A stretch of DNA of 64,000 nucleotides, from the NCBI RefSeq assembly GCF_025457605.1, contig NZ_JAMZFY010000002.1:868001-932000 (forward strand), read 5' to 3'. The position numbers were made by a program, and so were the translations under genes. The stretch comes from Haloarcula laminariae (lineage in GTDB: Archaea; Halobacteriota; Halobacteria; Halobacteriales; Haloarculaceae). The notes beneath the pieces were generated by a model. The model worked only from the letters and a program-made list of their open reading frames with translations, had not been told where the DNA came from and made no database searches. This document shows positions 24,786-32,049 of the stretch, piece by piece (within the stretch, counting starts at the first letter, position 1; every line of letters begins with the position of its first letter).

Positions 24786-25337
24786 TCACGTCGATTCAAT
24801 CACCTCCTGAAGCTTTTGATAGAGTGATTCAAATTCATCTTCAGCATTTTCGGGGTCTGTTACCCCTGAGAGTGTTACTTTTCCTGTCGCAAATATCTTA
24901 AAAAGCCCTTCATATTCGGGAGGACGGTAGTCCAGTGCAGGAAAAGACTCAGGCTCATACTCGATATTCTCTATCCCAAGGAAGGGTATTAACGCTTCAA
25001 GCCGTAATTTAGAACCGAAGTCACCTCGATAGACAAGATTTCTCAACTCGCATGTATTTTTGACCTCAATTTCTCTCTCAAGCATATTTGACACTTGTCT
25101 CACAAATTTTCTATGGGTAGCATACAACTCAACAATCGACTCTGCCCCCGCAATATTGTATTTCCCAGAAGAGAATACCATGATAGTTGCGCCGTCTTCC
25201 TCAAATTGAAGACATAATCCAGGGTATGATGCTGGCTCGTATTTTTTATTTTTAGCCTCGATATCAGCATAAAGAGAAGGAAGATTCAACTCAATACCGA
25301 GGTCGTCACCCCCAACAACACTCACTACTTCAGGCAT
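24786..25337 (-). CDS. Divergent TATA-binding-protein-like factor
   Basis: 183 aa, close to the usual TBP length. Two direct repeats about 94 residues apart: EPASYPGLCLQF...IMVFSSGKYNIAGA (about 34-64) and EPESFPALDY...LFKIFATGKVTLSGV (about 128-159), each like the TBP pattern FPGL-Y...LIFSSGKI-TGA. The N-terminus VVSVVGGDDLGIELNLPSL matches the TBP start VNVVASxDLG. Of the DNA-kinking Phe positions, one is Tyr (Y38); F55, F132 and F149 remain. Strongly diverged from chromosomal TBPs. It lies 131 bases downstream of the restriction cassette on the same strand. Confidence 0.8.
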   Translation of the reverse strand: MPEVVSVVGGDDLGIELNLPSLYADIEAKNKKYEPASYPGLCLQFEEDGATIMVFSSGKYNIAGAESIVELYATHRKFVRQVSNMLEREIEVKNTCELRNLVYRGDFGSKLRLEALIPFLGIENIEYEPESFPALDYRPPEYEGLFKIFATGKVTLSGVTDPENAEDEFESLYQKLQEVIEST

Positions 25338-25468: not shown

Positions 25469-26449
25469 CTATTTAAATTGGTCAAAGCCTGACTGTGACT
25501 CACCACCATCAGAAGATGCTTGCGGCTCTTTTTCGCCTTCTAACGCTTCTTCGTCAATCACATCGTCGGATTCACTTACAGGGTCAGAAAGCACCCAATC
25601 TTCAGAGATTCGAGCGTCCAGCATGTCCAACGTGCAGACTTTCACATTTTCTGCTGATTCTTCGATGCGGGCATAGTCGTCCCACATGCTCCCAAGAAGA
25701 AGGCCAGGACCATCATTGACAAAAAGCACTTTCAAGTCCAAGTTGTGTTCTTGGCTGTACTCGGTGATTCTGGTCACAGTGTTGGCGTTGCCACCCGTTC
25801 GGTCATCTTCTTGTGCTCCACCTCTGTCGGAGTCATACCGTGCGAAACCTACCAGTTCGGGGTCGCCTGTTGGTCCGTAGAGTACAAAATCGGCAGGTGT
25901 CTTATGCTCGTAGCCTTCAAGTACGTCATTCAGTTCAATATCTCGTCCCGCTCCTCGGGGTCCTTTCAGCTCGTAGTCGTCGCTGAAATTCTCTTCGAAC
26001 CACTTGAATACTTGCTCTTCTACCCAATATCCTTTGAACCCCCTATCGGAGTGCTGGTCTAGTAAAGCAGCAAGGGTACCGTCGGGCTGTGGACGACTAT
26101 TCCAGTTATCACGCACATCTTCTATATCACGGAATTTGTGTCCGAAGTCATCGATAACCATTGACTCGTTCTTTTTCTTCTTCATCATCTCTACGCTGGT
26201 GTCTGGAGAGATATATCGGCGGAAGATACGGAGGAGTTGAGTGCGTTGCTTCTCCGTCGTAGTCCATTCATTGTTTATGATACGAAGAACGTCGGCGGAG
26301 GAGTCAGCTCGCTCTATGAGTTTACCGAACTGTTCCATATCCTCCTTGTACTTCTCTTTCGCAGGTATGAGATAGTCGGGGTAGTAATCGGCTTCAACGA
26401 AGGTAATCCAGTCTTGGCCTTCGTCTTTGTAGTCACCGAAAGTTGGCAT
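25469..26449 (-). CDS. Putative restriction endonuclease, copy A
   Basis: 326 aa. Downstream of the methyltransferase in the same direction (55-base gap). Conserved blocks shared with copy B: DWITF-E-DYYPDYL (13-27), QLLRIFRRY (71-79), KGYWVEEQVFKWFE (139-152), GPRGAGRDIELN (163-174), TPADFVLYGP (184-193), GFARYDSDRGG (201-211) with QEDDRTGGN (213-221), and VLFVNDGPGLLLG (241-253). D170, D187, E198 and the DSDRGG region could form a nuclease active site, but a textbook PD-(D/E)XK lysine is not obvious. Assignment rests on context and the two-copy comparison. Confidence 0.6.
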   Translation of the reverse strand: MPTFGDYKDEGQDWITFVEADYYPDYLIPAKEKYKEDMEQFGKLIERADSSADVLRIINNEWTTTEKQRTQLLRIFRRYISPDTSVEMMKKKKNESMVIDDFGHKFRDIEDVRDNWNSRPQPDGTLAALLDQHSDRGFKGYWVEEQVFKWFEENFSDDYELKGPRGAGRDIELNDVLEGYEHKTPADFVLYGPTGDPELVGFARYDSDRGGAQEDDRTGGNANTVTRITEYSQEHNLDLKVLFVNDGPGLLLGSMWDDYARIEESAENVKVCTLDMLDARISEDWVLSDPVSESDDVIDEEALEGEKEPQASSDGGESQSGFDQFK

Positions 26450-26504
26450 TATAACCTAGGCATAGTTCATGCCTTCATAAACCCTCGGGGAGTATCGCTA
26501 GAAA

Positions 26505-27662
26505 TTACTGCATTTCGTAGACTTCGAACGGTGAGTGTCCGCTACCCTCTTTCATTCGCTCCTGAGTAACCTCAAACGCCTCATCTCCCTTGTCCATTCC
26601 CAACCAGTTCCGATTGAGTTTATCTGCTGCTGCGAGCGTCGTTCCACTTCCCATAAACGCATCCATCACCAAGTCACCCTCGTTCGAAGAAGCCTCTACA
26701 ATCCGTTCAAGCAGGTCAATATTCTTCTCGGTGGGGTATCCCGTGATAGCCTGTTGTTGGTTGTAGTAATCGCGTTTATCGAGCCACATATCGGTCACAG
26801 GAACACCATCCCGCTGGTCGTAGTAGACTTTCTTTCTCGGGTTGCCGCTGTCCGAGAATACAATCAGTCCCTCCTCAGCCATCTCCTCCAGTTTCTCGGG
26901 CGGGTACGTCCAGTGTTTACCCTCAGGTGGTTCCATTTCACGCCACGGTTCGCCTGTTTCACCGTCTCTTTCCCCAGGGGCGTGGATTGGAACTTTCATA
27001 TATTTCCTTCCTGTCTCCTCTTCTTCATACCGATATTCCTTCATGGCTCGTTCCTTCTCCTCCTTGGTCGGCGGTCGAGACGGTCGCTCCCAGGTCTTTT
27101 TATCGCTGTTTTTAGCGTAGAAGAAGATGAAGTCCTGAACATTCCCGTATCGCTTCTTCGTGGCATTCTTTGAGTGGCACTTTTTACGTGAGATGGTATT
27201 CTCGTAGTTCTCCCGCCCGAACACATCGTCAAGAATAATTTTGACGTGAGCCATCATCTCCTCACCAATATGTACATAGATGGACCCGTCTTCAGCAAGC
27301 AACTCGTGGATAAGCACTAAACGCTCCCGAAGGTATTCGAGATACTCAGCGTCCTCAAAACTATCTCTATAAGTCGGATTGGTTCGGCCACCACCACGGG
27401 ATTCAAAAGCGTGGTCAGCGGCGTATGGTGGGTCAATATAACAGAGTGTGACCTCGCCAGCCATATCCTGCTCTTTAATGAGATAATTCATTACATCAAG
27501 ATTGTCACCGTGGTAGAGTTGGTTCGGTCGGTCACGCTCCCCCGAAGAGTACTCGTCAAGTCCAATAGTGCCAGAAATGTCAGCAACTAGTTCGACATCA
27601 GGCGGCTCTTCATTCAGCAGCTCTTGCTTCAGTGTTTCAACAGAATCTGGCCGAGCTAACAT
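26505..27662 (-). CDS. DNA methyltransferase (beta-class, DPPY)
   Basis: 385 aa. Catalytic motif IV IDPPY at residues 76-80 comes before the SAM-binding motif I DAFMGSGTT at 334-342, the order of beta-class amino-methyltransferases. DPPY suggests adenine-N6 (or cytosine-N4) methylation. Other motifs: QLYHGDNLDVMNYL (48-61) and GSIYVHIGEEM (126-136); the middle (about 180-300) is a likely target-recognition region. It protects host DNA from the putative endonucleases on either side. Confidence 0.88.
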   Translation of the reverse strand: MLARPDSVETLKQELLNEEPPDVELVADISGTIGLDEYSSGERDRPNQLYHGDNLDVMNYLIKEQDMAGEVTLCYIDPPYAADHAFESRGGGRTNPTYRDSFEDAEYLEYLRERLVLIHELLAEDGSIYVHIGEEMMAHVKIILDDVFGRENYENTISRKKCHSKNATKKRYGNVQDFIFFYAKNSDKKTWERPSRPPTKEEKERAMKEYRYEEEETGRKYMKVPIHAPGERDGETGEPWREMEPPEGKHWTYPPEKLEEMAEEGLIVFSDSGNPRKKVYYDQRDGVPVTDMWLDKRDYYNQQQAITGYPTEKNIDLLERIVEASSNEGDLVMDAFMGSGTTLAAADKLNRNWLGMDKGDEAFEVTQERMKEGSGHSPFEVYEMQ

Positions 27663-27979
27663 CCTTGTCCTCCGTTTCTTCGTAATACCCTAAGTACCCT
27701 GTGTTCTGAGATATTTGATTAAGATGTAGCGGAACCAGTCAGATAAGCACCCTTTCTGAGAAAGGATTCTATGCCCAAAATCCCCTCAATGGCTTGCTAG
27801 CGGTTTTCTACTCGGACTCTCTCATTAGTTGAATTTTTCCTCTCCTCCATTCATGGTTTTTGAGAAGAACACGACACTCAATTTTCCCTGGTAGCTAACT
27901 GTGGTTCTGTTTTCATTTCGACTTTTCATTTTGTAAGTAAGCCGCAAGAGTTACTCCCGTTTGACCTGCATTCGTTGTC
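27663..27979. other. Intergenic promoter region between methyltransferase and endonuclease B
   Basis: 317 bp between two divergent genes. A+T-rich, with several T-tracts; no ORF of note, no obvious palindrome. It must hold both promoters and any control of methylase-before-endonuclease expression. Confidence 0.5.
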
Positions 27980-28900
27980 ATGCCCAACTTCGCCGATTTT
28001 GAAGATGAAGGAGTAGATTGGATTACCATTCTTGAAGAGGATTATTATCCCGATTACTTGGAGGATGCAGTTGAGCGTCATGAGGAAGACCTCCGAAAAT
28101 TTAAACAGATTGTACATAAGGTAGATTCGTCCGCTAAAATTCTAACATATATTAATAGCAACTGGAAGACGACAGGAGATGAAGGCAAGGAGAGAAGACA
28201 ACTTCTCCGAATTTTCCGCAGATACGTCTTGCCTGTCGCATCTGTCGAAATGACCTCAGTCAAAAGTAATCATGATATGGTAGTAAATGACTTTGCTGAA
28301 TTCATTAGGCCGATAGACGAGGTAAGGGAAGTATTGAACGGTCGAGAGTTCCCTGACGAGGCTCTGGCAGGTATTCTAGACCAGCACGATGACCGTGGTG
28401 AGAAAGGCTATTGGGTGGAAGACAAAATATTTGAATGGTTTGAAACCAACTTTGGGGACGAATTCAACATCGAGGGTCCAAGAGGGGCGGGCTCGGATAT
28501 TTACCTGAATGAAGAATTCAGTGGGTACGAGCACGAAACGCCTGCAGATTTTATTGTATACGGGCCCACGGACGAACCCGAAATAATTGGCTTTGCACGG
28601 TATGACTCAGATAGAGGCGGAGGACAGGAGGACGACAGAACAGGTGGAAATGATGATAAGGTTCAGAAAATAACGGAGTACAGTAAGGAACACGACTATG
28701 ATATAAAAATACTGTTTATAGCTGAGGGTCCAGGTCTTCTTCTCGGTGATATGTGGCAGAGTAATGCAAGAACTGAACAGAAAGCGCAGAATGTCAAGGT
28801 TTGCACTCTTAAAATGATGGACGAGCGTATCTCTGAGGATTGGGTTACTTCGGACCCGATTTCTGAATCAAGCGGACCAATTATTCAAGGTGAAAAATAG
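27980..28900 (+). CDS. Putative restriction endonuclease, copy B
   Basis: 306 aa, homologous to copy A over nearly its whole length (well over half of aligned residues identical by eye) but on the opposite strand, beyond the methyltransferase. Shared blocks: DWIT-E-DYYPDYL, RRQLLRIFRRY, KGYWVEDKIFEWFE, GPRGAGSDIYLN, TPADFIVYGP, GFARYDSDRGG and QEDDRTGGN, EGPGLLLGDMW. Differences: GYEHE instead of GYEHK before TPADF, and a shorter C-terminus. Both copies look intact, which argues for heterodimeric action or two related specificities rather than a dead duplicate. Confidence 0.6.
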   Translation: MPNFADFEDEGVDWITILEEDYYPDYLEDAVERHEEDLRKFKQIVHKVDSSAKILTYINSNWKTTGDEGKERRQLLRIFRRYVLPVASVEMTSVKSNHDMVVNDFAEFIRPIDEVREVLNGREFPDEALAGILDQHDDRGEKGYWVEDKIFEWFETNFGDEFNIEGPRGAGSDIYLNEEFSGYEHETPADFIVYGPTDEPEIIGFARYDSDRGGGQEDDRTGGNDDKVQKITEYSKEHDYDIKILFIAEGPGLLLGDMWQSNARTEQKAQNVKVCTLKMMDERISEDWVTSDPISESSGPIIQGEK

Positions 28901-29505: not shown

Positions 29506-32049
29506 TCAGCTCTCGGCTTCCCAGCTGAACAGCTCAGCCTCGACCTCGTTGTTCAGCGCCCGCAGGCTGTCGCCGACGTCCTCGCCGACGGGCATCTCCG
29601 CGCGGGCCCGCTCGATGATACCGCGGACTTCCGGGAACGGTCCCATCTGTGCGCCGTTGGTCGCGGGCGTGTCCGAAGAGTCCTGGAACTGGTCGAACGC
29701 GGTGGCGAAGTGCGGGTTCTCGTCGAACCATCCCTCGCTGCGAAGCAGGTCGGCGGCGCCGTCACAGACCGGGAAGTAGCCGGTCTCGCGATGCCAGCGG
29801 GCCTGCTGTTCGGGCTGGAGGAGCCACGCGAGGAACTCGCCGACGGCCTGTTCGACCGACGGGTCGAGGTTGTCGCCGATCCACAGCGAGGCCCCGCCGA
29901 CGAGGACGCCGTTGCGGTCGTCCAGCACGGGGAGGTAGCCTGTCTTCAGGTCGAACTCGGCGCCCGACTCGATGGAGCCCAGCGACGACGTCGAGCCGAT
30001 GAGCATGGCGGCTCGCCCGTCGTGGAAGGTCTTCTTGGCCGTCCCGCGGGCCTTGATACCGGTGTTGTGATAGAGCCCGTCGGCCTCCATGTCGGTCCAC
30101 CACTGGAAGAGCTCGTGGGCGAAGTCGCTATCGAGGTAAGCCTGGTCGGGGACGCCGCTGCGGCCGTTGTCCTCGTTGACGAGCTCCTGGCCGGCTTCGG
30201 CGAACCACTGTTCGACGAACCAGGAGTAGTTCGCGAAGGTGATGCCGTAGTCGACGACGCCCGCGTCGACGAGCTGTTGGCTGGCCTCGCGGACCTCCGC
30301 GAAGGTCTCGGGCGGGTTCTCCGGGTTCAGCCCGGCGGCCTCGAAGGCGTCCCTGTTGATACACAGCACGGGGTTCGAGGAGTTGAACGGCACCGATTGT
30401 AGCTCCCCGTCGACGGTGTAGTAGTCCGAGACGGAGTCGGTCAGTGACGCTTTCGCCGACTCCGGGATGATGCGTTCGGCGGGCTTGAACGCCCCCGACA
30501 GCCGGGCCTTCATGCTCCCTATCTCGTTTATCTGGGCGATGGCCGGCATCTCGTCGGTTCCGGACGACGCCAGACTCTCGTCTAAGACCCCGTCGTAGCT
30601 GCCCAGCGAGGAGAGCCGGAAGTGGACGGAGCCGTGTTCCTCCTCGAACTCGCGTGCGAAATCGTGCAAGAGCAGGGACTTCGCGCCGCCCATCGCGTGC
30701 CAGAAGTCGACGACGGTGTCGCCTTTCGACATCGTGTGTTTCTGCCGCTCGCCGGTCGTGAACTGCGCGGCCGTCGAGCCCAGCTCCTCGGCCCGCTGGG
30801 ACATCACGCCGACCTCCTGGGTGACGTCCGTGAGCGAGTCGGCCTGGCTCTCGGCCGCCTCGGCCACCGTCTCGGCCTCCGTGGTGGTCTCCTCGCTGAC
30901 GGCGCTGACCTCGTCGACCATCGAGACGACCGACTGCGTGGTCTGGGCCTGCTGGTCGACCGCGTCGTCTATCTCCTTGATGGAGGTGTTGACCTGCTCG
31001 ATCATGTGTACCACGTCGTCGAGCCCGTCGATGGTCGAGTCGACCGCGCTGCCGGCCTGGGAGACGACCTCCTGGGTCTCGTACATGTTCTCGACGGTGG
31101 TCTCGGTCTGCTCTCGCACCTCGGAGACGGTCGAGCTTATCTCGTCGGTCGCTTCCTTGGTCTCGTTGGCGAGGTCCTTGACCTCGTTTGCGACGACGGC
31201 AAAGCCCGAGCCCGCTTCGCCCGCCCGCGCCGCCTCGATGTTGGCGTTCAGCGCGAGCATGTTCGTGTCGTCGGCCACGTCGTTGATGAACTCGGTAATC
31301 TCCTCGATGTCGCCCATCAGATTCGAGAGCTGTTCGACCTGCTGGACCATCTCCTCGGTCTTTGCCTCCATCGCTTCGAGGTCCTCGATGGCCTTGGTCG
31401 CGGCCTCCTGTGCGTTGTCGCCGCTCTCGACGGAGTCCTCGGCGGTGTTTGCCACCTCGGTCGCCGAGGCCGCAACCTCCTCGATGGTCGCGGAGATAGA
31501 GCGCATCTCGTCGCCGACCTGCTGGAGGTGTTCGTTTTGCTCGTGGGCCCCGTCGGCGATTTCGCTGATGGACTGGCTCACCTGTTCGCTTTCCCGCTCG
31601 ACGTTCTCGACCTCCGACTCGACGTCGGAGGTGGACTCGTCGACCGACGTGCTGACCTCCTTGACCTGCTTCAACATCGTGTTCCACTCGTCGAGCATCC
31701 GGTTGTAGCTGGAGACAAAATCGACGACGGAGTCGACGTTGGAGTCGATGTCGGCCCGGCGTGTCAGATCGCCCGAGGCGTTGGCGTTGACGACGCCCTG
31801 TAGCTCGGCGAGGGACCCTTCGAGGTCGTAGAGGCGATGTTGCTGGTCCTCGACGGTGTCTTCGAGCTCATCGACGCGGTCGCGGGCCTGGTCGCGCTCG
31901 TTTCGCACCTCCCGGAACTTCGCACGCAGCTCGCTGTCCGACAGCGACTCGACGTCGACGCTATCGTCGGGCTCCGCCTCCGACTCGACTACACCGCCGT
32001 CGGGAGCCGCGTCGGCCCCTGCGCTCTCGTCACTGCGGTTATCGCTCAT
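29506..32049 (-). CDS. Soluble chemotaxis transducer fused to a solute-binding-protein domain
   Basis: 847 aa, no signal peptide and no membrane segment, so cytoplasmic. Order: acidic N-tail (1-37); coiled coil (38-85); HAMP-like stretch (about 80-125, ASGDLTRRADID); methyl-accepting signalling domain (about 130-435) with the conserved tip NMLALNANIEAARAGEAGSGFAVVANEV (263-290) that contacts CheA/CheW; then from about 444 a type 1 ABC solute-binding fold (VVDFWHAMGGAKSLLLHDFAREFEEEHG, LQSVPFNSSNPVLCINRDAFEAAGLNPENPPETFAEV, GYFPV). It would sense a ligand inside the cell and steer the flagella. The fusion order is unusual. Confidence 0.88.
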   Translation of the reverse strand: MSDNRSDESAGADAAPDGGVVESEAEPDDSVDVESLSDSELRAKFREVRNERDQARDRVDELEDTVEDQQHRLYDLEGSLAELQGVVNANASGDLTRRADIDSNVDSVVDFVSSYNRMLDEWNTMLKQVKEVSTSVDESTSDVESEVENVERESEQVSQSISEIADGAHEQNEHLQQVGDEMRSISATIEEVAASATEVANTAEDSVESGDNAQEAATKAIEDLEAMEAKTEEMVQQVEQLSNLMGDIEEITEFINDVADDTNMLALNANIEAARAGEAGSGFAVVANEVKDLANETKEATDEISSTVSEVREQTETTVENMYETQEVVSQAGSAVDSTIDGLDDVVHMIEQVNTSIKEIDDAVDQQAQTTQSVVSMVDEVSAVSEETTTEAETVAEAAESQADSLTDVTQEVGVMSQRAEELGSTAAQFTTGERQKHTMSKGDTVVDFWHAMGGAKSLLLHDFAREFEEEHGSVHFRLSSLGSYDGVLDESLASSGTDEMPAIAQINEIGSMKARLSGAFKPAERIIPESAKASLTDSVSDYYTVDGELQSVPFNSSNPVLCINRDAFEAAGLNPENPPETFAEVREASQQLVDAGVVDYGITFANYSWFVEQWFAEAGQELVNEDNGRSGVPDQAYLDSDFAHELFQWWTDMEADGLYHNTGIKARGTAKKTFHDGRAAMLIGSTSSLGSIESGAEFDLKTGYLPVLDDRNGVLVGGASLWIGDNLDPSVEQAVGEFLAWLLQPEQQARWHRETGYFPVCDGAADLLRSEGWFDENPHFATAFDQFQDSSDTPATNGAQMGPFPEVRGIIERARAEMPVGEDVGDSLRALNNEVEAELFSWEAES

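Follow-up and report, generated by a model that had tools for sequence, protein, structure and literature searches.

What might a solute-binding domain do when it stands at the C-terminus of a chemotaxis transducer that lacks any evident export signal? This question is raised by a gene on the minus strand of the window, the 64,000-nucleotide stretch of Haloarcula laminariae DNA analysed here, whose product (P0001) had been proposed in a sequence-only reading to combine a full methyl-accepting domain with a UgpB/MalE-like solute-binding fold in 847 aa without a signal or membrane helix, and to sense an internal metabolite. The analysis confirmed that P0001 is a soluble (cytosolic-class) methyl-accepting chemotaxis protein (MCP) with a C-terminal UgpB-type solute-binding domain, and its features in the window are as follows.

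29506..32049, minus strand: gene of the MCP-UgpB fusion transducer (P0001), 847 aa, ATG start, uninterrupted translation
31777..31938, minus strand: N-terminal helix, residues 38-91, from the AlphaFold2 full-length model (pLDDT about 57-77)
31735..31776, minus strand: inter-helix break with a GDLT motif, residues 92-105, HAMP-like by motif only
30766..31734, minus strand: MCP signalling domain, a helical hairpin over residues 106-428 (helices 106-276 and 281-428), from Pfam and the model
31165..31281, minus strand: hairpin tip, residues 257-295, from sequence, with invariant columns across orthologs
30718..30765, minus strand: flexible linker, residues 429-444 (pLDDT <50 at 428-440)
29509..30717, minus strand: UgpB-type solute-binding domain, residues 445-847, from Pfam, PDB sequence match, model and structure comparison
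30595..30597, minus strand: Y485, equivalent of UgpB Tyr64 (predicted phosphate contact), unchanged in all 56 fused proteins
29623..29625, minus strand: R809, equivalent of UgpB Arg393 (predicted glycerol hydroxyl contact), unchanged in all 56 fused proteins

The full methyl-accepting domain was borne out by a Pfam MCPsignal match at residues 213-384 (1.9e-41) and by the helical hairpin modelled over residues 106-428, whose conserved tip (residues 257-295) we take to be the MCP CheA/CheW-contact region, and Pfam also placed SBP_bac_8 at residues 465-783 (3e-35). Two methylation-like motifs were observed, ATIEEVAA at 187 and AVSEETTT at 383. HAMP had no Pfam match in P0001; within the GDLT motif, G93 is invariant and D94 and L95 are nearly invariant in the alignment of fused orthologs. 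PADLOC matches to the fusion were weak, fell inside its coiled-coil region and were disregarded.

Neither a membrane helix nor an export signal or lipobox was found in P0001 by hydropathy and motif reading, and the highest 19-residue Kyte-Doolittle average of the whole protein is 0.77. The fusion ORF has a stop-to-stop frame of 851 codons, with a stop four codons upstream of the ATG, and lies 166 bp from the upstream permease gene, so that a hidden in-frame N-terminal extension is excluded; the signal peptide or anchor that a frameshift could have concealed was likewise not found. That a sequencing, frameshift or assembly artefact fused two genes, or that a mis-called start masks a signal peptide, has in our judgement a negligible chance, as it is contradicted by the upstream stop, by the 56 fused ORFs and by a single split between fused and free forms in the domain tree, and is refuted by full-length orthologs in other genomes that are 90-91% identical to P0001. 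Most of the 56 fused orthologs have similarly low hydropathy, the exceptions being four fused relatives (L047, L054, L057 and L081) with N-terminal hydrophobic stretches (1.8-2.4) and no extracellular domain, which are possibly membrane-tethered forms whose solute-binding domain still faces the cytosol.

An AlphaFold2 model of residues 440-847, built with an alignment of 52 haloarchaeal sequences, returned a solute-binding fold with very high confidence (mean pLDDT 95.4) and no other fold, and the proposed domain boundary at residue 444 agrees with the model, in which the linker ends there and the first strand of the domain starts at 445. The UgpB/MalE-like assignment could be narrowed to UgpB specifically, among the CUT1 solute-binding proteins: the top PDB sequence match was E. 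coli UgpB (5.9e-53), UgpB structures took Foldseek ranks 1-4, and VIA-align ranked the UgpB structures 6x84, 4aq4 and 9lff first to third with Z of 53.4, 49.0 and 48.4, against Z ≤41.6 for other solute-binding proteins, with an rmsd of 1.6 over 402 residues to 6x84. As modelled, the domain thus has the UgpB fold. The full-length model (pLDDT 79, pTM 0.53) revealed helix 38-91, break 92-105, hairpin 106-428, a disordered linker and the solute-binding domain from 445, while its relative placement of the MCP and solute-binding parts was set aside.

Nine contact residues by which Phaeobacter UgpB holds glycerol 1-phosphate (G1P) and glycerol 3-phosphate (G3P) are listed in PMC12718374, and were mapped onto P0001 by anchoring on the E. 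coli W169/W172 numbering. Their equivalents are Y485, E509, S558, N607, W610, S686 (UgpB Ser266), G719, Y758 and R809, and all except N607 are invariant in 56/56 fused proteins; with 64/408 positions invariant overall, the invariance of 8/9 contacts has a hypergeometric P of 2e-6. The position of Trp188, one of two clamp tryptophans in UgpB and N607 in P0001, carries Asn in 45/56 and Thr in 11/56 fused proteins, and Asn also in 25/25 free haloarchaeal relatives, so judging from the residues, affinity or ligand size may differ from UgpB. Beside the lost Trp, position 608 holds Tyr in 56/56 fused proteins, and most free relatives have His there. By their residues at 509 and 809, two types of free relative can be told apart, E/D-R and S-Q/S, and the S-Q/S type presumably binds other ligands.

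The solute-binding domain was sought in 391 Halobacteria genomes, with fused and free forms called by ORF length. This survey, which the sequence-only reading had suggested, revealed the fused ORF in 66 genomes and partial ORFs at contig ends in three more, for which only the solute-binding part was read, so that the fusion was counted in 69/391 sampled Halobacteria genomes, while a phylum-wide search gave matches at E 1e-20 only within the same order (21/295 genomes). In total, 56 fused loci, three of them from a separate contig search, and 25 free relatives were read; the genome-contig search provided four close relatives, and among relatives with a name Haloarcula rara (L031) is the closest. 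For 36 of the 56 fused proteins, full-length comparison with P0001 gave identities of mostly 39-54%. In all 25 free relatives the domain is preceded by a twin-arginine motif, a lipobox or both, and many of their downstream neighbours fall in two shared protein clusters (c3 and c1), the members of which in one free-relative locus (L105) are an ABC permease and an ATPase. Three free-relative loci (L097, L105 and L112) were confirmed to hold GDPD genes, and L105 also encodes a HAD hydrolase. In the tree of the domain, one branch (support 99) separates the whole free set from the fused forms, a single fused/free split that fits one fusion event in a tree with a poorly fixed root.

The neighbourhoods of the fused genes point to glycerol metabolism: in 28 genomes, from seven genera (g1, g4, g8, g34, g41, g46 and g47) and two families, no more than a few kb separate glpK from the fused gene. 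At the Haloarcula-type loci (L038-L045), the fused gene immediately precedes glpK on the same strand and has a divergent glpA on its other side, and the same glpK placement was observed in the short loci of 20 genomes (L004-L023), partly shared with the former; glpK is also within a few kb at L047, L049, L054, L055, L057, L073, L081 and L090. NCBIfam equivalogs identified GlpA, GlpC and GlpK in L041 and GlpB in L039. About 60% of the fused genomes are without close glpK linkage. Placement beside glp genes is spread over several distinct clades of the fused proteins, for which the tree requires four changes, and we infer that the glp-adjacent site is the ancestral position of the fused gene. 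Directly downstream of glpK in L041 (5614-6702) lies a gene for a 363-aa protein whose cluster spans seven other fused loci; neither Pfam nor NCBIfam matched this protein at the chosen cut-offs, and by eye it looks membrane-embedded.

The window gene is not beside glp genes; its neighbour is an amino-acid permease, and no ABC permease occurs among its annotated neighbours. Its genome has glpK and glpA on a different contig, separated by 934 bp and without the fusion, and a remnant of the fused gene in this 934-bp gap was rejected, there being no convincing tblastn match (best E 0.099). In another genome of the same genus (G188), a broken fused gene was found at the glpK-glpA site (L088:6010-7592). 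Elsewhere in the window, a group of three genes (25469-26449 and 26505-27662, minus strand; 27980-28900, plus strand) consists of an N6/N4 DNA methyltransferase gene with a 59%-identical pair of genes on its two sides, and the product of 27980-28900, the sole flanking gene compared, matches the restriction endonuclease BstEII in PDB (9ibq, 1.6e-76), so the locus at 25469-28900 looks like a type II restriction-modification system with a duplicated nuclease. A TATA-binding protein gene (Pfam TBP, 5.1e-33) is located at 24786-25337 on the minus strand.

CheA was detected in 69/69 fused genomes against 314/391 overall (P 6e-8) and GlpK in 69/69 against 347/391 (P 2e-4), with genomes matched between the lists by eye and both P values treating genomes as independent and ignoring kinship. 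The genome of the window encodes CheA, three CheW-domain proteins, archaellins, glpK and glpA. Given the contacts that are conserved and the closeness of related genes to glpK/glpABC, the internal metabolite proposed earlier can be narrowed to a putative G3P or G1P, with signalling through CheA remaining the likely output. P0001 is thus probably a cytosolic transducer for intracellular G3P, possibly also or instead G1P, that signals via CheA in a metabolism-linked glycerol taxis; here we infer the ligand, the direction of the response and the transmission step. The C-terminal UgpB-type domain would bind G3P (or G1P) in the cytosol, closure of its two lobes would be relayed by the short linker to where the MCP hairpin ends, and the change in the hairpin would alter CheA activity and thereby archaellum switching. 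Since GlpK makes G3P from imported glycerol and GlpABC consumes it, the receptor would report glycerol-catabolic flux, giving a metabolism-dependent glycerol taxis. It also seems reasonably likely that one ancient fusion brought an exported glycerol-phosphate binding protein into the haloarchaeal cytosol as a chemotaxis input, and that the resulting cytosolic chemoreceptor, responding to a phosphorylated metabolite of central metabolism, couples GlpK/GlpABC flux directly to archaellum control.

The same architecture might instead serve G1P, the archaeal lipid precursor, or a glycerophosphodiester, in which case the receptor would report how lipids are made or turned over and not how glycerol is broken down. 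We regard this as unlikely, even though the missing Trp188 clamp would make room for a larger ligand, the structural matches include a relative from M. tuberculosis that binds GPC (PMC12718374) and some free haloarchaeal relatives adjoin GDPD genes; bacterial UgpB, moreover, takes G1P and G3P with similar affinity (PMC12718374). The linkage of the fused gene to glpK/glpABC, makers and users of G3P, in seven genera weighs against it, and Tyr608, the invariant residue specific to the fused proteins beside the lost Trp, may reclose the pocket. It is far less probable still that the solute-binding domain no longer senses a small molecule and has become a module for structure or protein docking, one that might touch a transporter or a metabolic enzyme from inside the cell. 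Its C-terminal position behind a 16-residue disordered linker, with no obvious rigid signal path, would suit such a module, but a purely structural role does not predict 8/9 ligand contacts remaining invariant over 56 diverged fused proteins.

Taking P0001 as a sensor of intracellular glycerol phosphate, its nearest precedents, by analogy, would be Car and PacP. Car (Htr11) of H. salinarum is, like P0001, a haloarchaeal soluble MCP for an intracellular nutrient (predicted in the case of P0001), though its ligand is arginine, which feeds energy metabolism (PMC3579733), and not a phosphorylated C3 compound; the consulted passages of PMC3579733 mention no UgpB-type domain in Car. BasB/BasT and CosB/CosT of H. 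salinarum also use a solute-binding protein as the sensor in haloarchaeal chemotaxis (PMC3579733), yet BasB and CosB are separate periplasmic-type partners of a membrane transducer, whereas the domain of P0001 is fused, C-terminal and cytosolic. UgpB (4aq4, 6x84 and 9lff) shares the fold and 8/9 of the G1P/G3P contact residues, but is an exported ABC-transporter component, while P0001 is MCP-fused, has no export signals and has one clamp Trp replaced. A literature search covering titles and abstract openings, with most subscription journals outside it, found no description of an MCP-UgpB fusion, and chemoreceptors reporting glycerol in haloarchaea were not met in the search, mostly of titles and abstract openings. 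Glycerol is a preferred carbon source of Haloferax volcanii (PMC12366361), and the MCP-UgpB family offers a specific, testable answer to haloarchaeal glycerol sensing with named candidate binding residues, in which an extracytoplasmic solute-binding fold would be reused as an intracellular sensor. PacP and the sCache_PC3 chemoreceptors bind G3P, and PMC12395807 presents them as the first known chemoreceptors whose ligands are phosphorylated compounds; unlike P0001, they are bacterial and transmembrane, with a periplasmic sCache domain of a different family and an extracellular ligand. If the proposed role is true, P0001 would represent a way for archaea to sense phosphorylated C3 metabolites in the cytosol, alongside the bacterial periplasmic route of PacP.
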